A program made the position numbers and the translations under genes. Positions 4,849-23,360 of a stretch of DNA of 64,000 bases are shown in pieces. The DNA is taken from contig NZ_JH815225.1 of NCBI RefSeq assembly GCF_000238095.2, positions 979,140-1,043,139 on the forward strand, in the 5' to 3' direction. Under the pieces are notes generated by a model, which made no database searches, was not told where the DNA came from, and saw only the letters and a program-made list of their open reading frames with translations. This DNA is from Peptoanaerobacter stomatis. Lineage in GTDB: Bacteria > Bacillota > Clostridia > Peptostreptococcales > Filifactoraceae. Each line of letters starts with the position of its first letter. The stretch's first letter is position 1.

Positions 4849-5895
4849 CTATTTATACATATTTTCATAATATTTCAGATATTCACCTGACGTTATTTTG
4901 GATAGCCATGCCTCATTATCAAGATACCATTTAATAGTTTCTGATATTCCTTGCTCAAAAGTATATGACGGTTCCCAAGCTAACTGACTTGTTATCTTTG
5001 TATTATCTATTGCATATCTTCTGTCATGACCGGGTCTATCTTTTACATATTCTATTAAATCTTCCGATTTTCCAATGGTATTTATTATAAGTTTTACAAT
5101 TTCTATATTAGCTTTTTCATTGTTTCCACCGATGTTATAAACTTCTCCTATTTTCCCTTTTTCAAGTACGGTATATATTGCTGTACAATGGTCTTTTACA
5201 TGTAGCCAATCTCTTACCTGCATTCCATCTCCATAAACAGGCATTTTCTTATCATTTTTACAGTTGTTTATCATGAGAGGTATCAATTTTTCGGGAAATT
5301 GATAAGGTCCGTAGTTATTTGAACATCTTGTTATATTTATAGGCATACCGAATGTTTCATAATACGCTCTTACAAACAAATCCGCACTTGCTTTCGAGGC
5401 TGAATAAGGAGAATTTGGACTAAGTGGTGTAGTTTCTGTGAACATTCCTTCTTTTCCAAGTGCACCGTATACTTCATCAGTAGATACTTGTAAATACTTC
5501 ACACCTTCTTTATATTCTCTTGAATATTTATCTTCAGGATTTATTTTCCAATGTTTTTTTGCATTATCAAGCAAATTTTGAGCGCCAAGTATATTGTTCA
5601 AAAGAAATATTTCAGGATTTTCTATACTTCTATCCACATGAGATTCAGCAGCAAAGTTTACTATTGTATCTATGTCATACTTTGTAAATATCTCACCTAC
5701 AAGTTTTTTGTCACATATATCTCCTTTGATAAATGTGTAATTTGACTTACCCTCAATTTCTCTTAGATTTTCAAGATTGCCTGCATATGTCAGCAAATCC
5801 AAATTTATTATATTGTAATCATAATTATTAAGCATCAATTTTACAAAGTTGGAGCCTATAAAACCCGCCCCACCTGTAATTAGTATATTTTTCAT
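4849..5895 (-). CDS. rfbB: dTDP-glucose 4,6-dehydratase (RmlB)
   Basis: Second step of dTDP-L-rhamnose synthesis: dTDP-glucose to dTDP-4-keto-6-deoxyglucose, using tightly bound NAD+. The 348-residue protein has the extended-SDR loop GGAGFIGSNF at residues 7-16, the STDEVYG active-site stretch, the YSASKA catalytic Tyr/Lys motif and the typical RCSNNYGPYQFPEKLIP segment. The ATG has AGGAAG upstream. It is the last of the rfbD-rfbC-rfbB trio; rfbA lies 18 kb away at the promoter end of the same locus. Confidence 0.96.
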   Translation of the reverse strand: MKNILITGGAGFIGSNFVKLMLNNYDYNIINLDLLTYAGNLENLREIEGKSNYTFIKGDICDKKLVGEIFTKYDIDTIVNFAAESHVDRSIENPEIFLLNNILGAQNLLDNAKKHWKINPEDKYSREYKEGVKYLQVSTDEVYGALGKEGMFTETTPLSPNSPYSASKASADLFVRAYYETFGMPINITRCSNNYGPYQFPEKLIPLMINNCKNDKKMPVYGDGMQVRDWLHVKDHCTAIYTVLEKGKIGEVYNIGGNNEKANIEIVKLIINTIGKSEDLIEYVKDRPGHDRRYAIDNTKITSQLAWEPSYTFEQGISETIKWYLDNEAWLSKITSGEYLKYYENMYK

Positions 5896-5922
5896 ATAAA
5901 AACTTCCTAAGAAAAATTTATT

Positions 5923-6480
5923 TTAAAATTCTATTTTTTGTTCTTTTAATGTTTTTCTATTTTTATCTTTATCTGATAATATTATCTCCATATCATCACT
6001 AATATGCCAATTGATAGCTATGTCCGGATCATCCCACGCTATACCGCCTTCACTGCTCGGATCATAAAAATTGGTGCATTTGTAAGCAAAGGTAGCCATA
6101 TCTGATAAAACTACAAATCCATGAGCAAATCCTTCAGGAATATACAACTGTTTTTTATTTTCACTACTTAATATTTCTCCATACCATTTGCCATATGTAG
6201 GAGAATTTTTTCTAAGATCCACTCCCACATCAAATACCTCTCCACTTAACACCCTTACCAATTTGCCTTGAATATTTTTGGTTTGAAAATGAAGACCTCT
6301 TAATACCCCTTTTTTAGAAGAAGATTCATTATCTTGAACAAATTTTACATCTATTCCTGCATTTTTAAAGTCATTTTCATTGTACGTCTCCATAAAATAT
6401 CCCCTGTTATCTCCAAATATCTCAGGTTCAATAACATACATACCTTTTATAAATGTTTCTATAAATTTAAATTTTGCCAT
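5923..6480 (-). CDS. rfbC: dTDP-4-dehydrorhamnose 3,5-epimerase (RmlC)
   Basis: Third step of dTDP-L-rhamnose synthesis. The 185-residue cupin shows EIFGDNRGYFMETYN near the N-terminus, the VLRGLHFQ segment with the catalytic His, the sugar-binding GVDLRKNSPTYGKW stretch, and IPEGFAHGFVVLS. Length is normal. AGAGGAT lies six bases before the ATG. Its start overlaps the end of rfbD by 22 bases, so the two are probably translationally coupled; rfbB follows after 27 bases. Confidence 0.95.
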   Translation of the reverse strand: MAKFKFIETFIKGMYVIEPEIFGDNRGYFMETYNENDFKNAGIDVKFVQDNESSSKKGVLRGLHFQTKNIQGKLVRVLSGEVFDVGVDLRKNSPTYGKWYGEILSSENKKQLYIPEGFAHGFVVLSDMATFAYKCTNFYDPSSEGGIAWDDPDIAINWHISDDMEIILSDKDKNRKTLKEQKIEF

Positions 6481-7319
6481 TGTCTATCCTCTTGTAGATA
6501 TTCCTTCAAAGATTCTTCCCAATGTCTAAATGTATCAAGGCCTCTCAATCTAAGCATAAAGTTATCAAGAATTGAATACGCGGGTCTCTTGGCAGGTCTT
6601 ACAAACTGCTCGCTTGTAACTTTTTCAACTTCTATATCAATATTCATAAGCTCAAATATTTTGCAAGCAAAGTCATACCATGAACAATTTCCTTGACAAG
6701 TTCCATGGTAAAGTCCATAATACTTTGTTTTGCTTAAGTTCAGAGCAACTTTTGCCAAATCTTTTGTATATGTAGGACTACCAAACTGATCTCCTACAAC
6801 TGTCAGCTTATCATTTTGTTTTGAAAGATTGAGCATAGTCCTAACAAAATTATTACCATCACCATAAAGCCAAGCGGTCCTTATAATGAAATACTTAGAA
6901 CAAAATTGTTTGACCAACTCTTCTCCATATAACTTACTTTTTCCATATACAGTTTTAGGATTAGCAAAATCACTTTCAATTCTAGGAATCTCATCTTCTC
7001 CTGAAAATACATAATCCGTAGAAAAATGTACTAACTTAGAGTCTATATGCTCTGCGATCATAGCAAGATTTTGAGCTCCAATTGCATTTATTTTATATGC
7101 ATTATCTATATCTTCCTCACATTTATCTACGTTCGTATGAGCTGCACAATTAAATATAACATCAGGAATGATGTCTAAAATAATATTTTTTACCTGTTCA
7201 TAATCAGTTATATCCATAGTATCTACATCATACAAATATATTTCATTATCACTTTTATTTATTTCTTTTTGCAATACCCTTCCTAATTGACCATTGGCTC
7301 CTGTTATTAAATATCTCAA
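6459..7319 (-). CDS. rfbD: dTDP-4-dehydrorhamnose reductase (RmlD), TTG start
   Basis: Last step of dTDP-L-rhamnose synthesis, an NAD(P)H reduction. The protein has the SDR loop ITGANGQLG at the very N-terminus, CAAHTNVDKCE, FSTDYVFSG, a YGKSK catalytic Tyr/Lys motif and the family's IIRTAWLYG. An in-frame ATG at 7340 lacks a ribosome site, whereas TTG at 7319 has GGAG (in TAGGAG) placed seven bases upstream and gives the usual N-terminus (Arg-Tyr-Leu-Ile-Thr-Gly). I therefore call a TTG start, giving 286 residues. A 261-base gap separates it from the radical SAM gene upstream. Confidence 0.93.
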   Translation of the reverse strand: MRYLITGANGQLGRVLQKEINKSDNEIYLYDVDTMDITDYEQVKNIILDIIPDVIFNCAAHTNVDKCEEDIDNAYKINAIGAQNLAMIAEHIDSKLVHFSTDYVFSGEDEIPRIESDFANPKTVYGKSKLYGEELVKQFCSKYFIIRTAWLYGDGNNFVRTMLNLSKQNDKLTVVGDQFGSPTYTKDLAKVALNLSKTKYYGLYHGTCQGNCSWYDFACKIFELMNIDIEVEKVTSEQFVRPAKRPAYSILDNFMLRLRGLDTFRHWEESLKEYLQEDRQWQNLNL

Positions 7320-7580
7320 TTTAAAACTCCTATAACTCATCTATATAGTTTTTATTTTAAATTAACTCTTCTAATTACTACTCTAATTAAATAGACATAT
7401 TATAAAACATTAAATTAAATGTATTTTATATTACTACATATTATTTTAAATCTGATATTTTCAATTTTATATTAAAAAATAATTAACATAAATAAAATTT
7501 TTTAAATAGTAATCGTAATAAAAATTTTTTCTTCAAATCACCTTTATTATTGCTAATTTGATGCAATCAAAAAATTTTTT

Positions 7581-8984
7581 TTACATAAACTCTATCTCTA
7601 TTATACCTAATCCTAACTTTCTAAAATCGCTTGAGCCAAAATCTGAAGGATAAAAAACATCATCTATTACAATTTTAACAATATAACATCCTGAGATAGT
7701 TGTTATAGACTCATAATTATCAATCTCCACAGATACTCTCCCCATGCTATTACCTATATTATTTATAGCTGAAAATGAATTAATATAATTATCATTTATA
7801 TAAACATCTGCATTAACAGATTTATTTATGGGGTGTCCATTAATATATTTAATACTTATCTCTCTAAAATCAATTTTTGTATTTATAAATATATTTCCTT
7901 GATTTCCATTCATCCATCTAAAAGAAATTTCTTGTCCATCATAATAAAACTTTTCCAAATCATAGAATGTTTCTAAATCACAAGACATATTATCTAAATA
8001 AGAATATTCATTAAGATAAGACTTTATAGTACAAATTTCTTTTAAATTCAAATATATGTCATTAAAATCAGAATGAGCTACCTCGCAACCATTAAAACAT
8101 CCTTCACATTTATTCACACATTCGTTTAATACATCATTATATTTATTAGAACTTATTATTTCATCAAAAGTATTTTCTTTTAGATTTCCCAACAAAAAAT
8201 CTTTCTTTTCATAATAACCATATGATGTAAGACAAGGATATAAATCACCATTTGGTGCAATAACAAAAGAATTCTTACCGGCATTACAGCTCATGCCTGA
8301 TATTCCAAAATCTCCATAACTATAAATATATTTTTTATCGAACCATCTGTCTATATATGGTATTATTGCACTTACTTCCCGTTTATCATACGGAAATCTT
8401 TCCCCTATCCATCTATATAATGGTGTTATACAAAAATCTATATTATTTTTTATAAAAAAATCTCGTGCTTCCAAAATAGTTGATATATTTTTTCTTTGTA
8501 TCACCGTATTTACGCCCACGCCTATTCCGGATTCTTTTATTATCTCTATTGTTTTAATCGCATTATCAAAGGCTTTTTTATTATTTCTTATCTTATTATG
8601 AACATTTCTTATACCATCAATTGATACAGTAAATCCTAATTTATTTTTATAAAAGCCACTAACATCTTCCATCTTATCTAAATAATGTATTAACATTTCT
8701 ATTTTTTCAGGGAAAGAAGCATTAGTAGTAATATTAACTTTTTTATTTTTCTTCAAAAAATATCCTATAATGTCAAATATATCATCTCTTATAAATATTT
8801 CTCCACCTGTTAGAAATACCTCATCTATTTCAAATAAATTTAAAGATTGTTCAAATATATTAATAATTTCATTAAGTTTTAATTCTTCTCTGGATTTATC
8901 ACTGTCAAGAAATACAAGACCACACATATCACATCTATAATTACATCTCTCAGTAAGCACTAATGTTACTTGGCTATTGCTCAT
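7581..8984 (-). CDS. Radical SAM/SPASM protein with a C-terminal beta-sandwich-like domain
   Basis: About 467 residues. The radical SAM cluster motif is TERCNYRCDMC (Cys 14, 18, 21), followed by the GGE SAM-binding motif near 59-62. A SPASM-type region follows with Cys near 233, 251, 289, 293, 296, 300 and 318, enough for auxiliary iron-sulfur clusters. From about residue 340 comes an unrelated, strand-rich domain ending FYPSDFGSSDFRKLGLGI. That ending resembles the small domain found on some polysaccharide-synthesis enzymes (pattern P-x-E/D-x-G-x-x-x-D-x-R-x-L-G). ATG 8984 has GGAGG nine bases upstream and overlaps gmhA by 11 bases; the longer ORF start is rejected. Radical modification of a sugar, or of a protein bearing the glycan, is an inference; the substrate is unknown. 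Confidence 0.82.
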   Translation of the reverse strand: MSNSQVTLVLTERCNYRCDMCGLVFLDSDKSREELKLNEIINIFEQSLNLFEIDEVFLTGGEIFIRDDIFDIIGYFLKKNKKVNITTNASFPEKIEMLIHYLDKMEDVSGFYKNKLGFTVSIDGIRNVHNKIRNNKKAFDNAIKTIEIIKESGIGVGVNTVIQRKNISTILEARDFFIKNNIDFCITPLYRWIGERFPYDKREVSAIIPYIDRWFDKKYIYSYGDFGISGMSCNAGKNSFVIAPNGDLYPCLTSYGYYEKKDFLLGNLKENTFDEIISSNKYNDVLNECVNKCEGCFNGCEVAHSDFNDIYLNLKEICTIKSYLNEYSYLDNMSCDLETFYDLEKFYYDGQEISFRWMNGNQGNIFINTKIDFREISIKYINGHPINKSVNADVYINDNYINSFSAINNIGNSMGRVSVEIDNYESITTISGCYIVKIVIDDVFYPSDFGSSDFRKLGLGIIEIEFM

Positions 8985-9606
8985 AAAAATAATCCTCCAG
9001 TTGCAAACATATAGCATGATATATAGGAAGATGTAGCTCTTGAATTTTATATGTTTCTGTCTCAGGAACTTTTATAGTTATGTCAAAATAGTCTTTCATT
9101 TTTCCCCCAGTCTTTCCTGTAAGAGCAATAGTTTTAGCACCTTTTGCCTTTGCAACTGTAACTGCCTTTAAAATATTTTTTGAATTCCCTGATGTACTTA
9201 TGCCAAAAAAAATATCATTATTTCTTATATATCCAAATAGCATTTGAGCATATATATACGTATAATCTACATCATTAGCATACGCCGTATGAAGTGCGTT
9301 ATGTGTATTCAAATTAATAGCTGCAAGTCCTCTCTGTAACACATCATATAACTCTTCGCCAATAACATTATCCACATGACACAATTTATCCTTAAAATCA
9401 TTTGTCATTTTTCTTTTTTTTATGAAACCTTTCATTAATTCTCCAACAATGTGGTCTGCATCAGCTGCACTACCTCCATTTCCTGCAATATATAAAATAC
9501 CATTATTATCATACATATCTATCATAAGTTTAATAGCATTTTCGATGGATTCCTTACACACCAAAAGTACAGGATATCTATTTATTAACTCATTAACATA
9601 CTTCAT
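8974..9606 (-). CDS. gmhA: Sedoheptulose-7-phosphate isomerase GmhA
   Basis: Converts sedoheptulose 7-phosphate to D-glycero-D-manno-heptose 7-phosphate, the entry to activated heptoses. The 210-residue SIS-fold protein has GNGGSAADADHIVGELMKG (phosphate loop and catalytic Glu), the second phosphate site GISTSGNSKN, and the C-terminal QELHLPIYHAICLQLED with the catalytic His. AGGAG lies upstream of the ATG. In a Gram-positive context this is the first enzyme of the GDP-heptose route completed by HddA, GmhB and HddC in this locus. Confidence 0.94.
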   Translation of the reverse strand: MKYVNELINRYPVLLVCKESIENAIKLMIDMYDNNGILYIAGNGGSAADADHIVGELMKGFIKKRKMTNDFKDKLCHVDNVIGEELYDVLQRGLAAINLNTHNALHTAYANDVDYTYIYAQMLFGYIRNNDIFFGISTSGNSKNILKAVTVAKAKGAKTIALTGKTGGKMKDYFDITIKVPETETYKIQELHLPIYHAICLQLEDYFYEQ

Positions 9607-9615
9607 AATACTCTC

Positions 9616-11052
9616 CTAAAATCTAAAATAAATAAATGGATTAAAGTCCGTAGATGTTACAAAACATATTTCTACAACAAATAGTAATATTAGCAGCAAA
9701 TCATAAACGCATAAAACTCTATAAAAAACTTTCTCATCATAACTTTTTATAGAATTTATAAAGTTTATAAAGGACTTATATCTCGGTTTTAAAAAGAATA
9801 TAGCCAATAGCAGAAATAGTATATTACTAAATTTAGCTTCAGAAAATACAAATCTATAATTTGTAAAATTAAAATTAAATAAATTTATTATTATATGAAA
9901 AGCTTTATTAATAGTATCTGCTCTAAAAAATATCCAACCAATCATAACAACAACAAGAGTATATATTCTTGCTATAAATCTCCTATTTTCAAAAAAATCA
10001 TCTATTTTAGTTTTTTTCTCAATAAGCAAAAACATTCCATGATACAAGCCCCAAAACACAAATGTCCAGCTCGCACCATGCCACAACCCTGTAACAAAAA
10101 ATACAATTAATAAATTTCTGTATGTTTTTAAAGCTCCTTTTCTATTTCCTCCAAGTGGTATATATAAATAATCTCTAAACCATGTTGATAAGGATATATG
10201 CCACCTTCTCCAAAACTCCTTTATATTTTTAGAAATGTAAGGATAATTAAAGTTTTCCAAAAACTCAAAACCAAAAACTTTTCCTAATCCTATTGCCATA
10301 TCTGAATATGCCGAAAAATCATAATATATTTGTAAAGAATAAGTTATTCCCATTAACCATGCCATTGGTGTACTGATATTATCTAAGTTATTAAAATAAT
10401 TATCCGCCATTTTTCCCATAGTATCCGCCAAAATAACTTTTTTCCCCAACCCTATTATAAATCTCTCTATACCTAATCTTATCGAATGAATATCTATATT
10501 TCTTGAATTCATCATATTTTCAATATCAATATATCGAACTATCGGACCTGCAATAAGTTGTGGAAAAAGAGCAATATAGAGCGCTAATTTAATAATATTT
10601 TTTTGTACATTAACTTCATTTCTATACACATCAATTATATATGATAATATTTGAAACGTGAAAAAAGATATCCCAACAGGAAGAACTATTTTTGTTACCT
10701 CTAATTGCTTTAAATTTACAATAGAAAATATTATATTTAAATTGTCCACAAAGAAGTTAAAATACTTATAAAAAAATAAAACCCCTATATTAAACATTAT
10801 TGCTATAATCAAATAAAATTTTCTCAATCCTTTATATTTTAATGCAGGTCTACTATCAATCATTATTGCAATAAAATAATTAAAAACTATGGAACTTAAT
10901 AAAATTATTGTATACTTTAATCCACCCCAAGAATAAAATACAAGTGATGCCAACAACAAAATAAAATTTTTAAATTTATTTGGAGACAGAAAATATAAAA
11001 AAAATGTTATAGGCAAAAATATAAAAATAAATGTAGTAGATGCAAATACCAT
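9616..11052 (-). CDS. MBOAT O-acyltransferase (AlgI/DltB type)
   Basis: A 478-residue polytopic membrane protein of the membrane-bound O-acyltransferase family. The hallmarks are SFFTFQILSYIIDVYR, the FWRRWHISLSTWFRDYLYIPLGG block, and LWHGASWTFVFWGLYHG with the invariant active-site His. Members transfer acyl groups, usually acetyl, across the membrane to an extracellular polysaccharide with the help of an SGNH-type partner, here the gene immediately upstream. ATG 11052 has AAAGGAG five bases upstream; the longer start at 11070 has none. The stop of the partner gene lies inside this ribosome site, so the two are tightly coupled. Confidence 0.93.
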   Translation of the reverse strand: MVFASTTFIFIFLPITFFLYFLSPNKFKNFILLLASLVFYSWGGLKYTIILLSSIVFNYFIAIMIDSRPALKYKGLRKFYLIIAIMFNIGVLFFYKYFNFFVDNLNIIFSIVNLKQLEVTKIVLPVGISFFTFQILSYIIDVYRNEVNVQKNIIKLALYIALFPQLIAGPIVRYIDIENMMNSRNIDIHSIRLGIERFIIGLGKKVILADTMGKMADNYFNNLDNISTPMAWLMGITYSLQIYYDFSAYSDMAIGLGKVFGFEFLENFNYPYISKNIKEFWRRWHISLSTWFRDYLYIPLGGNRKGALKTYRNLLIVFFVTGLWHGASWTFVFWGLYHGMFLLIEKKTKIDDFFENRRFIARIYTLVVVMIGWIFFRADTINKAFHIIINLFNFNFTNYRFVFSEAKFSNILFLLLAIFFLKPRYKSFINFINSIKSYDEKVFYRVLCVYDLLLILLFVVEICFVTSTDFNPFIYFRF

Positions 11053-11062
11053 TACTTCTCCT

Positions 11063-12706
11063 TTATTCAACTATTAATTTAAAAACAATAGGATAATCTT
11101 TGTTTACTTCTTCTAACCAAGATACTTTTTCTTGAACTATGGATAATAGAACTTCATACTCCCCTGCTTTTTCCGGAATATCAATATCATAATAAAAATC
11201 TACCGTTTCCCCTATATCTATAACATTCGGCAAATTTGACCATCTTCCTTCAATATATTGTCCATCTTTTTTTATATGATATGCCGCGCAGATTATATTT
11301 TTACCATTCGTTTTAATCAATCGCTTTGTATTATTAGTTAATTTAGCTTGAATACTTAGTTTTCCGGAATTATTTTTGACTTTCATTTGCTTATTTTTTA
11401 CATCTATTTTTATATTTGAATTTTCAGAATTTATTCTAAATTCATCTATACTGTTATCAATTTTTGCTATATTATTGTTTCTCTTAATTTCATTTAAAAC
11501 ATTCTTATCACTAAAGTCTCTTCTCATTATATCACATAGTTGCTGAACAAGTTGCTCATGTGTTGGTACCAAATCCGTAGATTGAACCTCAAAAAAGAAG
11601 TATTTATTATTATTTATTAAAGAAATTAAATACTCTTCTTCAATCTTATTATTTAATATCTCTAACAGCTCCTTTTTATCTGTAGATACATCAAATATCT
11701 CGCTTAAATACGTTATATATGTCAATTTACCGAACAAAGCCACATCTCTTTGAAAAATATAGCTAATCATATTTGAATATGACGTGCCGAATATTACCGC
11801 ATTATCCTTAACATACCCATTATCAATATCATAATCTATATCAAGTTTATAATAAAATTTATCTTTATTACCTTTGAAAATATTCAATAACAAATAAACA
11901 TCTATATCTTCTCCATAAAATACATCTTTAAGCTTTTCAACTTTTACATTCGGTTGTGGCAAAGCTATACCTGTTTTACTATATAAACTGTCAAATACAT
12001 CTTTTACAGCATAGACGGCCGCCAAAAACGTCCAATGAGTTCCTGTATTCGGATATAGAATAATATCTTGTTTATCATTTTTTATTTTTGTCATGGTTTC
12101 AGTTGTATCATAAAAAAAGACTCCATATTTTTCTAAGGACTCTTTAAGCAATTTATGAGCTGAAATCTCACTATGATCGGCATCCTCCATAAGTTTTCTA
12201 TGAAGAGGTATATCTTCATACATTACCTCAGGTTTATTCGGTGTGATTATGAAAAAAAATACCTTTCCCATATCAAAAAATCTATCTTGAATATATTTTA
12301 GATTTTTAGCATAATTATCATAATAATCGAACCCATATTCTACATTTGACGGGTTCAACACTCTCTCAATTTGTCCAATCTCATATATACTAGAATTTTT
12401 TCCAATCACTAAGTTTTTATTTCCTGATTCTGCCATAATACTATAAAAAATTTGATTATATAATCTGACAAACTTATCCCTAAAAGGAAAGTTTAAATTA
12501 AACCAACTATTATAACTGCTTTGGAACTCTCCTGACATTATATTCCTATAATTAACAACAGGTTTTTCATTCTGATTCTCAATTACTCCTGCTAAGCTAC
12601 CGTTTTTATGATTTCCAATAATAAATACAGAAAATACGAACATAGTTATCATAAAAAAAGAAATCGGAAGAATATAATAATATCGTTTTGATTTTTCATT
12701 AATCAT
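11063..12706 (-). CDS. AlgX/AlgJ-like SGNH-type acetylation protein with C-terminal sugar-binding-like domain
   Basis: About 547 residues: one N-terminal membrane helix (about 10-31) and an extracytoplasmic AlgJ/AlgX/DltD-like domain. It has NTGTHWTFLAA, the His motif of the family, and VIFGTSYSN, where the Ser is the candidate nucleophile. From about residue 445 a strand-rich domain follows: AAYHIKKDGQYIEGRW, NLP, then PEKAGEYEVLLSIVQEKVSW. This resembles a beta-sandwich domain often fused to glycan enzymes. It should hand acyl groups delivered by the MBOAT partner to the glycan. Its ATG overlaps the gmhB stop (ATGA). Confidence 0.82.
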   Translation of the reverse strand: MINEKSKRYYYILPISFFMITMFVFSVFIIGNHKNGSLAGVIENQNEKPVVNYRNIMSGEFQSSYNSWFNLNFPFRDKFVRLYNQIFYSIMAESGNKNLVIGKNSSIYEIGQIERVLNPSNVEYGFDYYDNYAKNLKYIQDRFFDMGKVFFFIITPNKPEVMYEDIPLHRKLMEDADHSEISAHKLLKESLEKYGVFFYDTTETMTKIKNDKQDIILYPNTGTHWTFLAAVYAVKDVFDSLYSKTGIALPQPNVKVEKLKDVFYGEDIDVYLLLNIFKGNKDKFYYKLDIDYDIDNGYVKDNAVIFGTSYSNMISYIFQRDVALFGKLTYITYLSEIFDVSTDKKELLEILNNKIEEEYLISLINNNKYFFFEVQSTDLVPTHEQLVQQLCDIMRRDFSDKNVLNEIKRNNNIAKIDNSIDEFRINSENSNIKIDVKNKQMKVKNNSGKLSIQAKLTNNTKRLIKTNGKNIICAAYHIKKDGQYIEGRWSNLPNVIDIGETVDFYYDIDIPEKAGEYEVLLSIVQEKVSWLEEVNKDYPIVFKLIVE

Positions 12707-13233
12707 AATAATGCCCTTTCATATTCTTTTAAGTTCGAATATTTTTTCGTATAGTCACACATACAAATTTCTTCACTTATAAGTATTCTTGTAGCAATTT
12801 TACTTCTTTTGGCAGCAATAATATCACTTTCTTTATCTCCTATCATAATAGATTCTTCAGGGGATATATTATACTTATTCATTGCTTTTATAAGCATTCC
12901 AGGGTTAGGCTTTCTATCAAACGAGTCTTTTCTATATATGCCTATTCCATCTTTATGATATGGACAATAAAAAATATCTTTTATTTCCACTTTTCTAATT
13001 TTAAATTCATTCATCATCCATTTAGACAGATTAATAAAATCTTCCTCTGAGTAAAATCCCCTTGCTATTCCTGATTGATTTGTTACAACTATGATAATAT
13101 ATCCTTTGTTATAAAAATAACGTGATATATTAAATATTTCTTCTTTAAATCTAAATTCTTCAATATTATGAGTATATCCATTTTCATCATAATTTATGAT
13201 GCCATCTCTATCTAAAAATAATGCTTTATTCAA
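12703..13233 (-). CDS. gmhB: Heptose-1,7-bisphosphate phosphatase GmhB (HAD family)
   Basis: Removes the 7-phosphate from D-glycero-D-manno-heptose 1,7-bisphosphate. The 176-residue HAD protein has FLDRDGIIN (Asp 8 and 10), VTNQSGIARG, the substrate loop RKPNPGM and the metal motif GDKESD. The family's zinc loop normally reads C-x-H...C-x-C; here Cys90 and His93 are present but the second pair is Ser-Phe-Asp (104-106), so zinc binding is probably lost. The start lies just inside the hddC region (4-base overlap with the hddC stop), and the gene overlaps the acetylation gene by ATGA. Confidence 0.9.
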   Translation of the reverse strand: MNKALFLDRDGIINYDENGYTHNIEEFRFKEEIFNISRYFYNKGYIIIVVTNQSGIARGFYSEEDFINLSKWMMNEFKIRKVEIKDIFYCPYHKDGIGIYRKDSFDRKPNPGMLIKAMNKYNISPEESIMIGDKESDIIAAKRSKIATRILISEEICMCDYTKKYSNLKEYERALL

Positions 13234-13919
13234 AATATATTCACCAATTCTCTTTGAGCTTTATAATAATCTTCTTTTATTCCAATATCTATGAAATATT
13301 CTTCAAAAATAAAAATACCCATATTTTTTTCGCACACATATTTTTCAAAAAAATCTTTTTCTAAAGAAAACTTCTTGTCTTGTATATTATCAAATATATC
13401 TCTATTTAATACATATATTCCGGCATTTATTACACTTTCTCTATAATATTTTTTTTCTTCAAAAGATACTATCTTATCATTTTCAAATAATATGCTTCCA
13501 TATCTATCTGAATTATACATTTTCTTTGCTGCTATTGTGACATCATTTCTTCTATTAATATGTTCTTCTATTAATTTCCTAAGGCTTATATCGAAAAATG
13601 TATCTCCGTTTATAACAAGATACATATCACTTTCATTTTCTTCAATTGCTTTTTTTATTGCTCCACCTGTTCCTAGCGGTATATCTTCGATACAATAATT
13701 TATATCTAAACCATTGTATCTGTTCCCAAAAAAGTTAATAATTTTATCCTTTTTATAACCTACGGAAATAACTATATCATTAATCCCGTTCTTTTTCAAT
13801 TGTCGAATTAAAATTTCCAAGAAAGGAACGTTATTGATTGGTGCCATAGGCTTTGGAATATCTGACACCACTTCTTGTAATCTCGTTCCCTTTCCCCCTG
13901 CCAAAATAATAGCTTTCAA
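13230..13919 (-). CDS. hddC: Heptose-1-phosphate guanylyltransferase (HddC-like), TTG start
   Basis: A sugar-phosphate nucleotidyltransferase of 229 residues. The signature KAIILAGGKGTRL is at the N-terminus, followed by IPKPMAPINNVPFLE, LGTGGAIKKA and VINGDTFFD (metal-binding Asp). Among GmhA, GmhB and HddA the natural role is making GDP-D-glycero-alpha-D-manno-heptose. The longest frame starts at 13997, but the TTG at 13919 has a perfect AAGGAG seven bases upstream and gives the family N-terminus. The extension would also overlap hddA, so it is rejected. Specificity for GTP and heptose is inferred from context. Confidence 0.88.
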   Translation of the reverse strand: MKAIILAGGKGTRLQEVVSDIPKPMAPINNVPFLEILIRQLKKNGINDIVISVGYKKDKIINFFGNRYNGLDINYCIEDIPLGTGGAIKKAIEENESDMYLVINGDTFFDISLRKLIEEHINRRNDVTIAAKKMYNSDRYGSILFENDKIVSFEEKKYYRESVINAGIYVLNRDIFDNIQDKKFSLEKDFFEKYVCEKNMGIFIFEEYFIDIGIKEDYYKAQRELVNIF

Positions 13920-13938
13920 AAGTAATCTCCTTAAATAA

Positions 13939-14961
13939 CTATATTCTCCAACCCTTAGTACCATATTGAACAAATTGTGGTCTAAAAACCTGTCCATTAA
14001 ATCTTTTAAGCTGTGTAATTATATTAGGCACTTTTATTGGGTTACATATAAACATCATAAATCCCCCTCCTCCAGCACCTGAAACTTTTCCGGCATATGC
14101 ACCATTTTTTATGGCCATATCAAAAACTTCATCAATCACTTCATTAGAAATCCTATCCGATACCTTTTTCTTTTCTATCCAAGAATGTCCTAATACCTCT
14201 GCAAAATTTCTTATTTCACCTTTTAATAAAAATTCTTTCATTTTGATTGCATCAGATTTCAGTGAATGCATTGCTTCTACCGATTTTTTTTCATTAATTA
14301 TTTTATTTTTTTGATCATCTATAACATCCGCTGAATCTCTAACTATCCCTGTATTATAAATTACTAAAGAACTTTCAAATTCGTTTATTATCCAGTTTTT
14401 TATACGTAATGGATTCACAATAACAGAGTTATTTTTATTAAACTCTATAAAATTAAATCCTCCAAAGGTTGCAGAATATTGGTCTTGTTTTCCACCTGAC
14501 AATTTTAAATCTATTCTTTCTATTTCATATGCAAGATTTGCAATATCATATTCACCAAGTGGAAGATTAAGGTATTCAACGAAAGCTTTTATTATTGCAA
14601 CAACCATGGTAGAAGATGAACCAAGCCCAGAACCAGATGGAGCATCTGAATAAGTCGAAATTGAAAGCGCTATTCTTCTTCCACCATTATAATCATTAAT
14701 TATTCTTTCATAAACACCCTTATGCAAGTCCAATATTCCATTATACTCAAAATTTTCTTCTGTATTATAATATTGATTTTCATTTCTTTCTAAACCAAAA
14801 AAAGTGATTTTATTATCTACTCTTTCTTCTAATGTGCAGTACGCAAACATATTTATAGTCGCGTTCAGCACACTTCCACCATATACATCACTATATTCCG
14901 GAATATCTGTTCCACCACCCGCAAATCCAAGTCTTAAAGGTGCTTTTGATCTAACTAACAT
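13939..14961 (-). CDS. hddA: Heptose-7-phosphate kinase HddA (GHMP kinase)
   Basis: Phosphorylates D-glycero-D-manno-heptose 7-phosphate at C1. The 340-residue GHMP kinase has [20 protein letters not shown] at the N-terminus, the ATP loop [15 protein letters not shown] near residues 107-121, and the C-terminal [18 protein letters not shown] motif 3. These match the HddA group more closely than galactokinase or mevalonate kinase. AAGGAG lies seven bases before the ATG. hddC follows after 19 bases. Confidence 0.92.
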
Positions 14962-14982: not shown

Positions 14983-15996
14983 TTATCTAGTCAAAAAGTT
15001 GTGACCTTTTTTTATTTTTTCTCTCCAATAATTCAAAAGATCTTCCATAGTTTTTTCAAATGAAATCTCAGGCTCCCAACCTGTATGATTTTTAAATTTA
15101 GCTGTATCTGGAACTTGCAGATCAGCATCTATTGGTCTTAATCTCTCTTTATCTGTTTGAACTTCAATTTTTCCCTCATAAGTAGACATCTTTAATAGTG
15201 TATCTAACATATCTCTCACTGAACAAGTATATGAGCCCCCGATATTATAATATTCACCTGCAATAGGATTTATAGTAACCAACATATAGTATGCTCTTAC
15301 TGCATCACGTACATCTGCCCAAGTTCTTAATGAGTCTAGGTTTCCTGTCTTAACTATCGGAGGAATCAATCCTGCTTCTATCATTGCGATTTGCTTTGCA
15401 AATGTAGACTCTGCAAATACATCTCCTCTCCTTGGTCCTGTATGAGTGAACATTCTTGTTGTCATTGTTGTTATCCCATATGCTTGTGCATAATATCTTC
15501 CGACCAAATCTGTGCCTACTTTAGATATAGCATACGGAGATGCGGGATGAAAAGTACATTCTTCATTAATTGGCAATTTTTCTCTACTAACTCTTCCAAA
15601 AACTTCTGATGATGCACACACATGTACAACAGGCTTTAATCCAAGCAATTTTACACTTTCTAAAAGTCTTGCCGTTCCTAAAATATTAGTATTCATAGTA
15701 TCTATTGGTGAATCAAAACTTGTTTTAGGATAACTTTGTGCTGCAAGGTGAAATATATAATCCGGATTTACCTTCTTCAATATTGTAATTATAGAAGCCA
15801 TATCATTCAAATCAGCGTATTCTATAAATACTCTATCTTTTTCATTTACTCTTTTTAATAAATGTTCTATGTTGTCAAACGGACTCCTCCATCTGCTAAA
15901 ACCATATATATCCCAATCTGTATTTTCTAATAAAAAATCACATAGATGCGAACCAACCATACCTGTAATTCCTGTTATTAATGCTCTTTTTTTCAT
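14983..15996 (-). CDS. GDP-mannose/GDP-heptose 4,6-dehydratase (GMD/DmhA-like)
   Basis: An extended SDR of about 337 residues: ITGITGMVGSHL NAD loop, CASSEVFG active-site segment, YAISKVGTD catalytic Tyr/Lys, and TRMFTHTGPRRGD, typical of GDP-mannose 4,6-dehydratases. Because it sits directly upstream of hddA, hddC and gmhB and no GDP-mannose genes are present, GDP-manno-heptose is the more likely substrate. That is as in Campylobacter DmhA, giving a 6-deoxy-4-keto-heptose. ATG 15996 has GGAGG eight bases upstream; the TTG at 16011 overlaps that site and is rejected. Substrate choice is inference. Confidence 0.88.
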   Translation of the reverse strand: MKKRALITGITGMVGSHLCDFLLENTDWDIYGFSRWRSPFDNIEHLLKRVNEKDRVFIEYADLNDMASIITILKKVNPDYIFHLAAQSYPKTSFDSPIDTMNTNILGTARLLESVKLLGLKPVVHVCASSEVFGRVSREKLPINEECTFHPASPYAISKVGTDLVGRYYAQAYGITTMTTRMFTHTGPRRGDVFAESTFAKQIAMIEAGLIPPIVKTGNLDSLRTWADVRDAVRAYYMLVTINPIAGEYYNIGGSYTCSVRDMLDTLLKMSTYEGKIEVQTDKERLRPIDADLQVPDTAKFKNHTGWEPEISFEKTMEDLLNYWREKIKKGHNFLTR

Positions 15997-16039
15997 ATTA
16001 CTTACCTCCAAAAAAATAATAGTGACTTACAAAATCAAA

Positions 16040-16879
16040 TTAAAAAAATTCTTTAATCATAGCATTTTTTATTTTTGTAGATGTTCTACCCAACAATTTT
16101 TCAAAATATATGGATTTTACATTTATAGTTTTCGGTCTGTTAAGTAAAAAACTCTCGCTTGGTTTTGAAACATTATACTTTAAATTTCTATCAACAACTT
16201 CTGTATATATTTCCACCAAATTTTTTCTTGACAACAAATCTGAACCACATATATTAAAAAGATAGTTATCCCATCTGTCAAAAGTTTTTATTAGATTAAT
16301 TATACCACAAATAACATCATCTATATATACAACATTCCTGTAAAGTGAATCATATACGTCTGCTGTTATATTATTTTTTGAACACTTTAACAAATATTGC
16401 ATAAATTTATCATCTTTTGAAAATACATATGATAATCTAAAAACTTTAAAATTAATATATTTCTTAAACATCTCTTCAATCTCATATTTCATTCTACCAT
16501 AATTACCGAAAGGATTAGAAGCAGAATTTTCATCAAATATACAAGAATAATCACCATATGCAACATCAGATGAAAAAAATAAAACTCTACATCCTTTATC
16601 TAAAAGTTTCTTTATTATATTTTTAGTCCCTATAACATTTATATTATAAGCATATTCATAATTTTTATTACATTCATCAGGTGAAGAAATCGCAGCCAAA
16701 AAAATAACATAATCTCCAATTTTAAAATTATCATAATTAAATTCATCATATTTTTCAATATCAAATACAACATCACTATATTTTTTATATCTTGAATATG
16801 TTAAAACTTCTTTTCTGTCTAAATGTTCTAAAAATCTTTTAGCTATATATCCATTACTTCCCAAAACATGTATCTTCAT
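16040..16879 (-). CDS. NAD-dependent epimerase/reductase (extended SDR)
   Basis: About 279 residues. It begins MKIHVLGSNGYIAKRF (SDR nucleotide loop), then FLAAISSPDE, FFSSDVAYGDY and NYGRMKYEIEE with the catalytic Tyr-x3-Lys. It is divergent, and its sugar cannot be read. Its place beside the GDP-sugar 4,6-dehydratase suggests it reduces or epimerises the 4-keto product, completing a GDP-deoxy-sugar. ATG 16879 is preferred from the fold; the ribosome site is weak (AAAGAG) and the start overlaps the preceding gene by 26 bases, so translation is probably coupled. Upstream in-frame starts at 16894 and 16930 cannot be excluded. Confidence 0.8.
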   Translation of the reverse strand: MKIHVLGSNGYIAKRFLEHLDRKEVLTYSRYKKYSDVVFDIEKYDEFNYDNFKIGDYVIFLAAISSPDECNKNYEYAYNINVIGTKNIIKKLLDKGCRVLFFSSDVAYGDYSCIFDENSASNPFGNYGRMKYEIEEMFKKYINFKVFRLSYVFSKDDKFMQYLLKCSKNNITADVYDSLYRNVVYIDDVICGIINLIKTFDRWDNYLFNICGSDLLSRKNLVEIYTEVVDRNLKYNVSKPSESFLLNRPKTINVKSIYFEKLLGRTSTKIKNAMIKEFF

Positions 16880-18245
16880 AATTTTCTCTTTCATCAAATA
16901 TTTTTTCAAATGTTTCGTAGTTACAATCAAATATATTCTCTAACACATTACCTGGTACATCATAATTAGCAGTAAAGTTAAATATTGAAGTCTTAAAGTA
17001 TCGATAATATTCATTATCCAAAACATTTTTATATTTAATTGTATCTTCTACAAAATCACAAAAATCATTTGCAGTATCTTCAATACTCAAATATTTTTGT
17101 GCATATTCATAAGAGAGTTTCTTCATATTTTCTACTAAATTTTTATCTGATATTAATTTTGTTATAGCATTCTCCAACTCATCTATTTCCGTAGATTTAT
17201 ATGAAATCTTTATAACCATTTCATCACTAAATTCTTTAAATGTTCCTATATTAGTAACTATGGATGGTTTTCCCATACTTAATGCTCTCATCAATACCCC
17301 GGATGTTTCTCCCATTGTTGGATATCTCAAAGAAATACAAAAATCTGACGCTATAAGATAATCTTTAAAAGTGTCTATATCTGTAAAACCTGTAAATTTA
17401 ACTCTTTTAGTCAATTTCTTCTTATCCACCATAGTTTTTAAATCTTTACAAGCATCATGAACTTCTCCTACAAATATTAATTTTGCTTTTTTCCCTGAAT
17501 CTATCACTCTTGAAAACGCTTCTATTATAGAATATGGTCTTTTTGACGGAGTAACAAATCCAAAAACACAAAACAAATATTCATCAGAGTCTATTTCAAT
17601 ACCATATTTTTTTCTTACCATATTTTTTTCATTTTCAGTCACCAACTTAGGTTCTCCACCACAATGTAAATATATTCGCTTTATAGGCACTCCTAAATTA
17701 TAACTCTCCAAATTTTGTTTTGAAAATTCTGAAAAAGTAATTAATGATATTGATTTTGATAATATTCTTTTATTCATAGGATAATTGACAGCATCTGTTT
17801 CCCATAATCCCATTTCTCCATTACAAGCCCTTTTATAAGCAATATTTTTAGCTTCTTCTCCATGATTGAATAGTACTTCATCAAAATATTTCACGTCACT
17901 TTTATAATTATTATAAAATATATGAGCAATTAAATGATGTATAGCATAATCGTGTAAAACTACAATTCCTGGGTATCTTATTAGATACTCGTATATTTTT
18001 TCATGATAATTATTATTTCCCATCTGATAAATGACTACATCGTAAGATTCTCTTAATTTAACAAAGTCTTCAAATATATATATATAATGATTTTTTTTTG
18101 TTACTTCTTCTGATGCTTCATAATCAGAATCAATAAATAAATCCACTTGAAATCTATTTTTTATATATGGCAACATTTCTTCCGCATAATCTGCAATTCC
18201 AGATTTTAAAGGATGTAACGGTGTAAAAAAAGCGACTTTTTTCAT
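16854..18245 (-). CDS. GT4-family glycosyltransferase
   Basis: A 463-residue GT-B enzyme. The N-terminal domain starts VAFFTPLHPLKSGIADYAEE, typical of GT4 enzymes, and includes VVLHDYAIHH. The C-terminal domain has FCVFGFVTPSKRP, LIFVGEVHDA and ISLRYPTMGETSGVLMRALSMGKP, equivalent to the E-x7-E nucleotide-sugar site. A tail of about 60 residues follows the fold. AGGAG precedes the ATG by six bases. It probably adds a sugar to the lipid-linked glycan at the inner membrane face; donor unknown. Confidence 0.87.
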   Translation of the reverse strand: MKKVAFFTPLHPLKSGIADYAEEMLPYIKNRFQVDLFIDSDYEASEEVTKKNHYIYIFEDFVKLRESYDVVIYQMGNNNYHEKIYEYLIRYPGIVVLHDYAIHHLIAHIFYNNYKSDVKYFDEVLFNHGEEAKNIAYKRACNGEMGLWETDAVNYPMNKRILSKSISLITFSEFSKQNLESYNLGVPIKRIYLHCGGEPKLVTENEKNMVRKKYGIEIDSDEYLFCVFGFVTPSKRPYSIIEAFSRVIDSGKKAKLIFVGEVHDACKDLKTMVDKKKLTKRVKFTGFTDIDTFKDYLIASDFCISLRYPTMGETSGVLMRALSMGKPSIVTNIGTFKEFSDEMVIKISYKSTEIDELENAITKLISDKNLVENMKKLSYEYAQKYLSIEDTANDFCDFVEDTIKYKNVLDNEYYRYFKTSIFNFTANYDVPGNVLENIFDCNYETFEKIFDERENYEDTCFGK

Positions 18246-19277: not shown

Positions 19278-19292
19278 CATTATCTCCATTCA

Positions 19293-20588: not shown

Positions 20589-21815
20589 TTATATCGATTG
20601 CTTAAAATTCGATAATCTCCTTATAATAAACTCTGATGATTTCTTCAAATTATATTCATTTACTATTTTATATTTAGCTTCTTTTGAAATTTTTTTATAA
20701 AAATCTTTATCAAAGTATAATTTTTTCATATATTCAGCGGCTTCTTCTTCTTTGGGTTGTGCCCAAGTATTCCCTTTTTTGTAAACTCCATAATCTTTAT
20801 CAATCTTTATTAAATCATATCCGACTAAACATGCACTTTTATCATCCATGAAATCTACATTTGAGGACCAATTTGTTGCTATTACAGGTTTTTCAAAATA
20901 CATAGCTTCTGCCATAACCAAACCGAAACCCTCTGAACGATGTAAAGATACAAATACATCACATAAATTAATTAATGAATTAACATCATTTTTACTTAAA
21001 ACCATATCTAAAATATAGATATTATCTACATTTTCAACTTCAGATATTATAGATTCTATGCCTCGCTTCTTTTTGAAATCATTAACTTTTATTACAAGCC
21101 CAACAGAATTATTGCCTAAAAAAGTCTGTTTAAAAGCTTTTATGGTAGAAATGGGATTCTTCCTTTCTATTACACTATTAATATCAAACATTGTAAGAAA
21201 AAGAAATTTATTTTCAGGTAAACCAAAATACTCTCTATCTCTATGTATATCTATAAACGGATGTATTGCAAATGGCATAGTATAAACTGGCTTATTGGTT
21301 ATTTTTTTTATTGAATCTGTGCAAAAATTACTCGGTGTCCAAATTTCATCAAAATAGTCACAGCTTTTTTTCCAATCCACAGGAAACTCAGGCAGTTCCC
21401 ACGCAAAATGTGCAATATTATATCTATATTCCCAGAATTTTTTACCTGAATATGCTCTAAATCTCATAATTTTATCTGCATTTAATTGAATCAAATTTAT
21501 TGAATATTTAGGTTCTCCAATTTTTTTACTTAATTTAAAATCAGCTATTCTCGCATTATGTTCTTTTTCATAATCTACAATTACAAAATCTATTCCACTT
21601 TCCTGAATAGCATCAGCAATGAGTCTACAGCCTTCTCCAAGTCCCATCTCAGCTTTTGCATAACCAACAAGATTTATTCCATATGGATATTTTCCAATTG
21701 AATACCTATTATATATAATAAAGAAATTACATATATTAAAATATATATTTTTAATTACAATTCTATATTTTTCACGAATAACTTTTTTCAATACTTCTTT
21801 CAAAAATATCATCAT
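20589..21815 (-). CDS. GT4-family glycosyltransferase
   Basis: A 408-residue GT-B enzyme. After a hydrophobic N-terminal stretch (about 20-40) come INLVGYAKAEMGLGEGCRL, IAHFAWELPEFP, DEIWTPSNFC and MPFAIHP. The donor domain has FLFLTMFDINSVIERKNP and LHRSEGFGLVMAEAMYFEKPVIAT, the full E-x7-E motif. The GLGEG segment and W-E-L-P motif are shared with mannosyltransferase-like GT4 enzymes of surface glycan loci; the donor is not certain. Its ATG overlaps the wzt stop (ATGA), so it is coupled to the exporter genes. Confidence 0.88.
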   Translation of the reverse strand: MMIFLKEVLKKVIREKYRIVIKNIYFNICNFFIIYNRYSIGKYPYGINLVGYAKAEMGLGEGCRLIADAIQESGIDFVIVDYEKEHNARIADFKLSKKIGEPKYSINLIQLNADKIMRFRAYSGKKFWEYRYNIAHFAWELPEFPVDWKKSCDYFDEIWTPSNFCTDSIKKITNKPVYTMPFAIHPFIDIHRDREYFGLPENKFLFLTMFDINSVIERKNPISTIKAFKQTFLGNNSVGLVIKVNDFKKKRGIESIISEVENVDNIYILDMVLSKNDVNSLINLCDVFVSLHRSEGFGLVMAEAMYFEKPVIATNWSSNVDFMDDKSACLVGYDLIKIDKDYGVYKKGNTWAQPKEEEAAEYMKKLYFDKDFYKKISKEAKYKIVNEYNLKKSSEFIIRRLSNFKQSI

Positions 21816-22558
21816 AATTTAGTGCCTTCAATACTTTTAACATATTTATCTAGTACATCTTTGCTTTCGCCAATTTCTACTACTTTCCCATTTTTAATCC
21901 ATATTGCCTTGCTACATAATTTCCTCACTACTTCATTTGAATGAGAAACTAAAATAAGGGTTGTTCCACCTAACATAAGTTCCTCCATTTTTTGTTCACA
22001 TTTCTTTTGAAACGAATAGTCTCCTACCGACAAAACTTCATCAACAATCAATATATCAGGTTTAAATATTGTTGCCAAAGAAAAGCCAAGTCTTGCTACC
22101 ATACCAGAAGAAAAATTTTTAATTGGAATATCTATAAAATCCCAAAGTTCTGCAAAATCAACTATCTCTTGAAATTTTTCTGTCATAAATTTTCTGTCAT
22201 TTCCTAAAACAGCGCCATTTAAAAATATATTCTCTCTTGCTGTCAACTCTAAATCAAATCCTGCACCTAACTCTATTAGCGGTGCAATTCTCCCATAAAT
22301 ATCTACACTCCCTCTTGTAGGCTTATAAATACCTGATATTACTTTCAATAATGTTGATTTTCCTGAACCATTAGAACCTATTAAAGCAACAGATTCACCC
22401 TTATTAATTTCAAAAGAAACATCTTTTAAAGCGTAAAACTCATTTATTCTCACTTCATTTTTTAAAATTTTTATAAATTTTTCTTTTATGCTGTTTATTT
22501 TCTCCGAATACAAGTTAAACACCATAGAAATATCATTTACTTTTATAATTACAGACAT
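21812..22558 (-). CDS. wzt: Polysaccharide ABC exporter ATPase (Wzt/TagH-like)
   Basis: A 248-residue nucleotide-binding subunit. Walker A is IGSNGSGKST near residues 61-70, followed by LIELGAGFD, NIFLNGAVLG, the signature NFSSGMVARLGF, Walker B ILIVDEVLSVGD and the switch His in LVSHS. The extended N-terminus before the ATPase core and the GAGFD and NGAVLG motifs are typical of Wzt/TagH/KpsT exporters. It ends right after the ATPase fold, so it lacks the C-terminal carbohydrate-recognition domain of O9a-type Wzt. It pairs with the permease 25 bases upstream. AGGAG precedes the ATG. Confidence 0.93.
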   Translation of the reverse strand: MSVIIKVNDISMVFNLYSEKINSIKEKFIKILKNEVRINEFYALKDVSFEINKGESVALIGSNGSGKSTLLKVISGIYKPTRGSVDIYGRIAPLIELGAGFDLELTARENIFLNGAVLGNDRKFMTEKFQEIVDFAELWDFIDIPIKNFSSGMVARLGFSLATIFKPDILIVDEVLSVGDYSFQKKCEQKMEELMLGGTTLILVSHSNEVVRKLCSKAIWIKNGKVVEIGESKDVLDKYVKSIEGTKL

Positions 22559-22583
22559 ATTTTCTCCTAATCAATGATACCAT

Positions 22584-23360
22584 TTACAAATATAATAAAA
22601 AATTATCCTGTCTTTTTAAAAATGTTTTTATTCCCAAAAATACAGAAACCATAGAAAAAATTATGCAAATAAAATTCATATTTATAGAAGGTGTTTCACC
22701 CAATATTATTATTTTTCTAAAATAAGTAACATAATAATATAATGGATTTACTAGCATTATTGCTTTTCCAATTAATGGCAATATATTTTCAGGATAAAAT
22801 ATTGGCGTCAAATACATACAAACAGTTAAAAAAACAGAGTATAGGTGTACAATATCTCTATAATATACTGTTATTGATGACAATATTAACCCAACCCCCA
22901 TTGAAAATACAAACAAATATAATAAAACAATAGGTAATAAAAATATATTCCATGTTATTTTAACATTGCTTATACAAATCATTATAGCAATTGCTCCTAA
23001 TGAAAACATCATGTTTGTAAAAGACGATAATACCCTTGATATAGGAAATATATATTTGGGAATATATACTTTTTTCAACAAACTCGCATTATCTATGACA
23101 GACATCATGGATAAATTTGTAGATTCTGAATAAAATCCAAAAACAATTTGTCCTACTAACACATATAATGTATAGTTTTCTATATCATATCTAAACAAAT
23201 ATGAAAATACCAACGAAACCACACACATCATCATTAGTGGATTCAACAAACTCCATAAATATCCAAGAATAGATTTTCTATACTTTATCTTTAAATCCCT
23301 TTTAACCAATTCAAATAATAACGGTCTATATTTCAAAAAATTCAATAAATATTTATACAT
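22584..23360 (-). CDS. wzm: Polysaccharide ABC exporter permease (Wzm/TagG-like)
   Basis: A 258-residue ABC-2 type membrane subunit. The cytoplasmic N-terminus RDLKIKYRKSILGYLWSLLNPL is the hallmark of Wzm/TagG/KpsM permeases. About six membrane segments follow, with YYRDIVHLY and LTPIFYP typical of the family. With Wzt it should flip the finished lipid-linked glycan across the membrane. GAGG precedes the ATG. rfbA lies 107 bases upstream in the same direction. Confidence 0.93.
   Translation of the reverse strand: MYKYLLNFLKYRPLLFELVKRDLKIKYRKSILGYLWSLLNPLMMMCVVSLVFSYLFRYDIENYTLYVLVGQIVFGFYSESTNLSMMSVIDNASLLKKVYIPKYIFPISRVLSSFTNMMFSLGAIAIMICISNVKITWNIFLLPIVLLYLFVFSMGVGLILSSITVYYRDIVHLYSVFLTVCMYLTPIFYPENILPLIGKAIMLVNPLYYYVTYFRKIIILGETPSINMNFICIIFSMVSVFLGIKTFLKRQDNFLLYL

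Follow-up and report, generated by a model that had tools for sequence, protein, structure and literature searches.

The window analysed here, a stretch of 64,000 nucleotides of Peptoanaerobacter stomatis DNA with a G+C content of 28%, contains a glycan locus whose genes lie on the minus strand and include, besides those listed in Table 1, glycosyltransferases and a methyltransferase. Amid its nucleotide-sugar genes, between gmhA and rmlD, sits a gene encoding a radical SAM/SPASM protein fused to a C-terminal domain (CTD) that recurs on polysaccharide machinery. Gene sets of this kind point to an ABC-exported, O-acylated polymer containing rhamnose and (6-deoxy-)heptose, of the kind found in S-layer glycans or capsules. 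The exact sugars are putative assignments, because many of the pathway proteins score under the NCBIfam equivalog cut-offs.

Table 1. The radical SAM gene, its parts and its neighbours in the glycan locus (positions in the window)
Feature	Position	Strand	Basis or remark
rmlB, rmlC, rmlD (dTDP-rhamnose), downstream of the radical SAM gene	4849..7340	-	by reading; close counterparts in G001
Radical SAM/SPASM/CTD fusion gene P0001	7581..8984	-	467 aa, single intact frame
CTD, polysaccharide-machinery module, residues 338-467	7584..7973	-	profile searches
DxRxLG motif DFRKLG, residues 453-458	7611..7628	-	sequence and alignment
SPASM region, seven cysteines, residues 233-318	8031..8288	-	Pfam and alignment
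CxxxCxxC radical SAM cluster motif CNYRCDMC, residues 14-21	8922..8945	-	sequence
gmhA-like sedoheptulose-7-phosphate isomerase	8974..9606	-	140.5 bits, under NCBIfam cut-off of 209.45
GGAGG, ribosome-binding-site-like	8994..8998	-	within gmhA, 9 nt 5' of ATG 8984
MBOAT O-acyltransferase	9616..11070	-	over Pfam cut-off
Possible MBOAT partner	11063..12706	-	no family match; AlgJ/DltD-like role suggested by position
gmhB-like heptose bisphosphate phosphatase	12703..13233	-	GmhB_yaeD over cut-off
hddC-like heptose-1-phosphate guanylyltransferase	13230..13997	-	best family, below cut-off
hddA-like heptose-7-phosphate kinase	13939..14961	-	best family, below cut-off
GDP-sugar 4,6-dehydratase family	14983..16011	-	Pfam over cut-off; gmd best NCBIfam, below cut-off
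RmlD/epimerase-like reductase	16040..16930	-	Pfam over cut-off; NCBIfam below cut-off
ABC polysaccharide exporter, ATPase (248 aa) and permease	21812..23360	-	teichoic acid/galactan exporter models best, below cut-offs
rmlA, glucose-1-phosphate thymidylyltransferase	23468..24340	-	over cut-off

Also in the window, a 12-bp unit is repeated 5.8 times at 18731-18798, inside an ORF on the minus strand (18255-19289), where it encodes NENI repeats; because each unit leaves the frame intact, the length of the protein may differ between strains. A T-box leader (RF00230) lies on the minus strand at 59639-59873, upstream of an operon (56992-59354) that reads as an amino-acid ABC transporter. The ORF at 52351-56550 encodes a surface-protein-like product of 1399 aa that ends in a Cu_amine_oxidN1 domain; purely as a guess, this protein could be a carrier of a surface glycan.

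For the radical SAM gene, the ATG at 8984 was preferred over a longer mechanical start at 9017, since the GGAGG lies 9 nt upstream of the former. The gene then shares 11 bp with gmhA, the overlap on which the original prediction had based a coupling of its expression to heptose synthesis, and which would provide for co-translation at most. A promoter scan gave nothing above chance, and the sole terminator-like site in a terminator scan is on the strand opposite to the gene. The 467-aa product lacks a membrane span in a simple hydropathy scan (maximum 1.31 over 19 residues).

The N-terminal part of the protein matches Pfam Radical_SAM (residues 9-176; 61.2 bits against a cut-off of 29.5) and SPASM (PF13186; residues 233-296; 45.4 bits against 21.5), in line with the CxxxCxxC cluster and the seven-cysteine SPASM-like region originally read from the sequence. 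C14, C18 and C21 are present in all 53 aligned rows, i.e., the fusion protein and 52 of 75 located relatives. The SPASM-region cysteines are C233, C251, C289, C293, C296, C300 and C318, arranged as CX12GX4C, then CX3CX2CX3C, then C. The consensus spacing is CX9-15GX4C ... CX2CX5CX3C ... C, with which the first half agrees and from which the second departs. Most relatives keep four of these seven cysteines in the aligned rows. The best 25 of 53 NCBIfam radical SAM families matched (NirJ, AlbA, PqqE, MftC, HpnH and others) all score far under their cut-offs, the top score being 74 bits against 515.45, and the protein is therefore none of those named enzymes. A phage radical SAM family, phrog_1802, matches residues 2-304 with 74.1 bits, a score close to that of the top NCBIfam family. 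The GGE motif reads GGEIF, where relatives mostly have GGEPF. No Pfam domain beyond Radical_SAM and SPASM was found at E 0.001, hence no RRE (PqqD-like), and with a Pfam match that begins at residue 9 there is no N-terminal extension. A single further SPASM protein is encoded in the same genome, outside the glycan locus (L002/L023), and reads as a SCIFF-type maturase.

The roughly 125 C-terminal residues are, as had been predicted, unlike a radical SAM domain and end in a DxRxLG motif. Against Pfam the CTD has no match at a threshold as loose as E 10, and a CTD profile matched nothing among PDB sequences. Profile searches with the CTD alone did find it: it occurs on Wzt export ATPases and Wzy_C ligases, on GT-C, GT4 and GH5-like proteins and on one methyltransferase, in agreement with the polysaccharide enzymes named beforehand as bearers of the motif. 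Among 398 genomes of the same phylum, the search returned the protein itself and two proteins of one genome (per-genome E 1e-4 and 8e-4), one GH5-like and one a membrane protein, both in a single Wzm/Wzt locus; the profile then reached GT-C-like proteins in two more genomes, in loci that by reading hold an ABC exporter and rml-like genes. The four other same-phylum CTD proteins for which the locus was read, from three genomes, all lie in ABC polysaccharide exporter loci (L033 and L034 by reading). Further afield, the profile was positive in 13 of 151 genomes around the Chloroflexota centre, 13 of 148 around the Desulfobacteraceae centre, 1 of 100 around the Nitrospirota centre and 3 of 98 relatives, the last figure including the own genome and one weak match (E 0.001). 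A weak second match in the own genome (E 0.17) was rejected, as the A4 profile did not confirm it, and a plasmid search with a CTD relative returned nothing.

When 22 CTD-bearing proteins were typed with Pfam, 16 matched a family and six matched none. The families comprise PMT_2/GT87 (four), Wzy_C (five, one under cut-off), Wzt (two), GT4, GT2 (the latter on a weak CTD match), a methyltransferase, a GH5-like protein and DUF7024 only (one each); a nucleotide-sugar enzyme family was matched by none of the 22, and no peptide enzyme was found among the CTD proteins examined. The relationship of the fusion protein to this module can be scored independently: a 4-row profile built without it gives it 43.2 bits (best of 2000 shuffles, 11.7), and a 9-row profile of Chloroflexota sequences only gives 22.9 bits (best of 2000 shuffles, 8.5). 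The sequences were first gathered with profiles that contained the fusion protein, which makes the sampling, and not the score, partly circular. Across a 13-row alignment a W, a D, an R and an L are invariant and an E, an R and a G nearly so; within DxRxLG itself, D, R and L are invariant and G nearly invariant. One relative (L146) matches DUF7024 (PF22895) over cut-off, and apart from this match of a single member we found no name for the module; the CTD of the fusion protein has no such match. Collectively, these similarities support the CTD as a glycan-machinery module, and no peptide-recognition domain was found in the protein.

In two Wzt ATPases (L118, 1489-3252; L127, 1498-3213) the DxRxLG module follows Wzt_C, where it is possibly a second chain-recognition domain of the exporter. 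The module is also matched twice or more in a Wzy_C (O-antigen-ligase-like) protein and in a methyltransferase (L149 and L150).

The radical SAM core has its own set of relatives. Neither 148 genomes from the order and family nor 391 from the class yielded a near relative, and the fusion protein is unmatched in two genomes of the same genus (G001 and G002). The three class-level matches are proteins of about 355-390 aa in glycosyltransferase loci. The order and family search gave seven non-self matches, which include pairs of radical SAM proteins read as heme-type from sequence; neighbourhoods were read for three (L019-L021), L022 serving as a control only. One of these (L020; G097:C52:12000-28000) reads as an NRPS-like cluster; four of its genes encode radical SAM proteins, two are glycosyltransferase-like and one is carbamoyltransferase-like, and a radical SAM protein of this locus also carries GGEIF.

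An alignment-based scan of 84,980 species genomes confirmed 432 relatives, of which the best 80, spread over several phyla, were taken further; these are 23-31% identical to the core. Neighbours were counted in 75 of the 80 loci, leaving out L036, L040, L051, L052 and L112, where the radical SAM ORF was lost to an overlap filter. Within these best-scoring loci, an ORF labelled as a glycosyltransferase adjoins the radical SAM gene in 51 of 75, lies within three ORFs in 64 and occurs anywhere in 67; it is absent from eight, some of which are short stretches, and from all seven control stretches. These final counts use glycosyltransferase labels only, since 'wzt' labels were generic ABC matches in the controls; an earlier, broader count of 70 of the best 80 takes in wzt and methyltransferase labels. 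The glycan bias is partly circular, as the scanning alignment held three members from glycan loci. One frequent arrangement is a GT4 - radical SAM/SPASM (about 335 aa) - GT4 cassette in exopolysaccharide-type loci of Lachnospiraceae (L041-L050, L055-L065 and others). In three Chloroflexota loci (L068, L091 and L102; about 7600-11200) a protein of about 290 aa, with the shared N-terminus YLTDYNEGLGLVYERL, is followed by a GT2 and then by the radical SAM/SPASM gene, and in L105 and L089 a GT2 directly precedes the radical SAM gene.

Plasmids were searched without the bias towards glycan loci. There was no DNA similarity, and tblastn returned nothing at 1e-10 and seven weak records at 0.01. Three of these were opened: two are glycan loci (63 bits), whose proteins carry only the annotation 'radical SAM protein', and one is a RiPP-like neighbourhood with repeats (62 bits). 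Two other records are annotated as mycofactocin maturase and sulfatase maturase. A phage search gave two weak unannotated matches, and single-protein scans of genome contigs and viral contigs gave no relative. Homologues outside glycan loci, which would have spoken against a glycan role, are thus indicated in part for the core taken alone, by the eight loci with no glycosyltransferase-labelled ORF in the DNA covered and by the maturase and RiPP-like plasmid matches.

The fusion itself is a single case in the samples examined. The CTD was found in none of the radical SAM ORFs in the best 80 of 432 loci, those of the five filtered loci included, the ORF of L114 being cut off by a contig end. Conversely, the CTD is present at E ≤ 0.001 in 44 ORFs of the fetched CTD loci, some of them near-identical, and only the fusion gene among them has CxxxCxxC or a whole-protein match, many of the others being partly cut by short loci. 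A survey of operons holding the same architecture, as initially proposed, yielded core relatives that are mostly near glycosyltransferase genes and no second fusion. A quick version of a tree, used only to call the protein isolated, places it on a long branch of its own among long branches that meet.

The dedicated tie to heptose synthesis that the gmhA overlap had suggested is not supported by comparison with other hdd loci. The corresponding locus of G001 contains rmlA, Wzm, Wzt, gmd, hddA, gmhA, hddC, gmhB, rmlD, rmlC and rmlB, and neither a CxxxCxxC ORF nor an MBOAT-labelled one. Both are likewise missing from the stretches fetched around the hdd operons of G065 (a contig of only 9.6 kb) and G068; these three are the ones compared among six other genomes with hddA, the remaining three having weaker hddA matches. 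Among the best 80 of the 432 radical SAM relatives, hddA- or gmhA-labelled ORFs occur in two loci only. Since the hdd/rml locus of G001 and the hdd operons of G065 and G068 do without it, the gene seems to be accessory to the polymer of this strain and, judging from gene content, is dispensable for heptose/rhamnose synthesis in G001.

Structure prediction bears on the two halves unequally. An AF2 model from the single sequence was of no use (mean pLDDT 33.5), and one built from 53 sequences models the barrel and the initial half of SPASM with confidence, its CTD being unreliable. In both models the CTD consists almost entirely of strands, with one three-residue helical turn each, at a pLDDT mostly below 50, so that of the beta-sandwich proposed earlier the strands are predicted and the sandwich fold is not established. 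For the core, VIA-align puts BlsE first (7vob; Z 24.9, rmsd 3.0, 289 aligned residues, 17% identity) and SkfB second (Z 23.8, rmsd 4.5, 268 aligned residues), only residues 1-307 being spanned by at least a fifth of its rows. Ranked by E-value, Foldseek lists SkfB first and SuiB and anSME also before BlsE, which is eighth; by TM-score it places BlsE above all three. The best PDB match by sequence is SkfB. SkfB, SuiB and anSME act on peptides. The predicted fold thus does not separate a sugar from a peptide substrate, because BlsE tops VIA-align whereas SkfB leads both Foldseek and the PDB sequence search.

The explanation that we favour, with confidence and doubt in about equal measure, is that the protein is a cytoplasmic radical SAM/SPASM enzyme that acts on the surface polysaccharide made by its locus, modifying a residue of that polymer or a substituent on it while docked through its CTD. 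As a soluble protein it would act by radical chemistry, most likely by oxidising or epimerising a sugar carbon, and the CTD would tether it to the lipid-linked glycan or to the assembly and export machinery, so that the sugar residue is modified before ABC export. Where export runs through an ABC transporter, the entire chain is assembled in the cytoplasm, and a cytoplasmic iron-sulfur enzyme could for this reason reach it. A glycan substrate is favoured by the CTD module, by the ABC exporter in the locus, by the neighbours of the relatives and by the finding of neither an RRE nor an adjacent precursor; a lipid-linked or growing chain is favoured because the CTD sits on ligases, exporters and GT-C proteins that handle chains and on no typed nucleotide-sugar enzyme. 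Several observations count against this explanation. The fusion is known once, so the joint working of its halves has no comparative constraint; the core is about equally distant from peptide-type and glycan-locus enzymes (62 versus 63 bits on plasmids); SkfB, a peptide maturase, leads two of the structural and sequence rankings; the core stands isolated on its long branch in the quick tree; the glycan bias of its relatives is partly a product of the scanning alignment; and the seven-cysteine SPASM region is unlike that of the relatives, most of which keep four of the seven. A more specific proposal, which we put forward only tentatively, is that the enzyme edits the assembled polysaccharide chain in the cytoplasm, recruited by a module common to Wzt exporters and O-antigen ligases. 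If so, radical chemistry, e.g., in-chain epimerisation or oxidation, would take place at the level of the polymer and not on a monomer or a peptide.

Alternatively, though we consider it rather unlikely, the enzyme could act on a small precursor (GDP-heptose, GDP-6-deoxy-heptose or dTDP-rhamnose) to give a modified nucleotide sugar, with the CTD merely keeping it near the glycosyltransferases. The position of the gene among consecutive nucleotide-sugar genes, with gmhA on one side and rmlD on the other, the place of BlsE at the head of the VIA-align list and the small substrate of BtrN (PMC9012708) would fit such a role, but the heptose/rhamnose locus of G001 lacks the gene, hddA or gmhA labels are rare around the relatives, and a polymer-machinery module, seen on none of the 22 typed proteins in the company of a nucleotide-sugar enzyme family, would be superfluous.

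Most characterised SPASM enzymes are peptide or protein maturases, and a role of this kind, e.g., on a glycan-bearing surface protein, would agree with the closeness of SkfB, SuiB and anSME in fold and of SkfB in sequence, with the seven cysteines, as in SPASM peptide maturases, and with the plasmid relative beside RiPP-like repeats. We nevertheless regard it as improbable: the protein has neither RRE nor N-terminal extension, the 240-bp gap downstream holds no precursor-like ORF (the longest on the strand of the gene is 27 aa), the sulfatase motif [CS]xPxR occurs in none of the 55 non-overlapping window ORFs of at least 60 aa, and the CTD was on no peptide enzyme among those examined. Enzymes such as anSME also lack an RRE or adjacent precursor, so these absences lower the probability of a maturase rather than remove it. 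Least probable of all, the CTD would serve in protein interaction generally or as ballast, and the gene would be a recently acquired accessory with no settled function, perhaps inactive; a fusion that occurs once, the lack of a match in G001 and G002 and the GGEIF variant could be so explained, but the 467-codon frame and all cluster cysteines are intact, the gene has its own ribosome-binding-like site and a tight overlap with its neighbour, and GGEIF recurs in L020.

Returning to an enzyme acting on the surface polysaccharide, its components can each be likened to known systems. The radical SAM/SPASM proteins encoded in exopolysaccharide loci (L016-L018, L035, L042 and relatives) have the core in common, at 23-31% identity to the rows of the A5 alignment, and lie mostly near GT4 or GT2 genes; they are about 320-400 aa long and lack the CTD (best 80 of 432; L114 cut by its contig). 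The Wzt ATPases with Wzt_C (L118 and L127), the Wzy_C ligases and the GT-C proteins share the CTD of about 125 aa and have a transport, ligase or glycosyltransferase part in place of the radical SAM part. SkfB, SuiB and anSME resemble the core in fold, whereas the fusion protein carries a glycan-machinery module and no peptide-binding domain that we could find. BlsE, a cytosylglucuronate decarboxylase, shares the core fold and acts on a sugar acid, but differs in its small nucleoside substrate and in the absence of the CTD, besides being only 17% identical to the core.

The original prediction had held that sugar chemistry by such an enzyme would be new, which is too strong: BlsE, BtrN (DOIA dehydrogenase) and NeoN (neomycin C epimerase) act on sugars or aminocyclitols, the last two on their carbons according to PMC9012708 and PMC10991966. 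NeoN, called a putative radical SAM epimerase in PMC10991966, acts on an assembled aminoglycoside, and the same paper also mentions radical SAM epimerisation for avilamycin. Both differ from the fusion protein in belonging to antibiotic pathways, BtrN further in having a twitch domain and a single auxiliary cluster; NeoN is likened here on the chemistry it performs. Oxidation of the BtrN type and epimerisation of the NeoN type may serve, by analogy, as chemical precedents (PMC9012708; PMC10991966). In Brachyspira hyodysenteriae, a plasmid glycan region holds several radical SAM genes beside glycosyltransferases and rfb genes, for which a role in rhamnose synthesis and glycosylation was suggested without a tested function (PMC4267127); the likeness to this region is by published description, not by sequence. 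Radical SAM cassettes also vary among pelagiphage genomes (PMC7029224). Among the papers listed by the literature searches, as far as titles and the beginnings of abstracts tell, none reports a tested function of a radical SAM enzyme from exopolysaccharide loci on a surface polysaccharide.

Radical SAM genes occur in many exopolysaccharide loci, as seen from the 51 of 75 located relatives (among the best 80 of 432) that adjoin a glycosyltransferase-labelled ORF, and the CTD is a recurrent module that links exporters, ligases and glycosyltransferases. A natural fusion of the two offers a handle on the substrates of this group of enzymes: it is a real and unusual radical SAM/SPASM architecture, which suggests the editing of a surface sugar rather than of a peptide.
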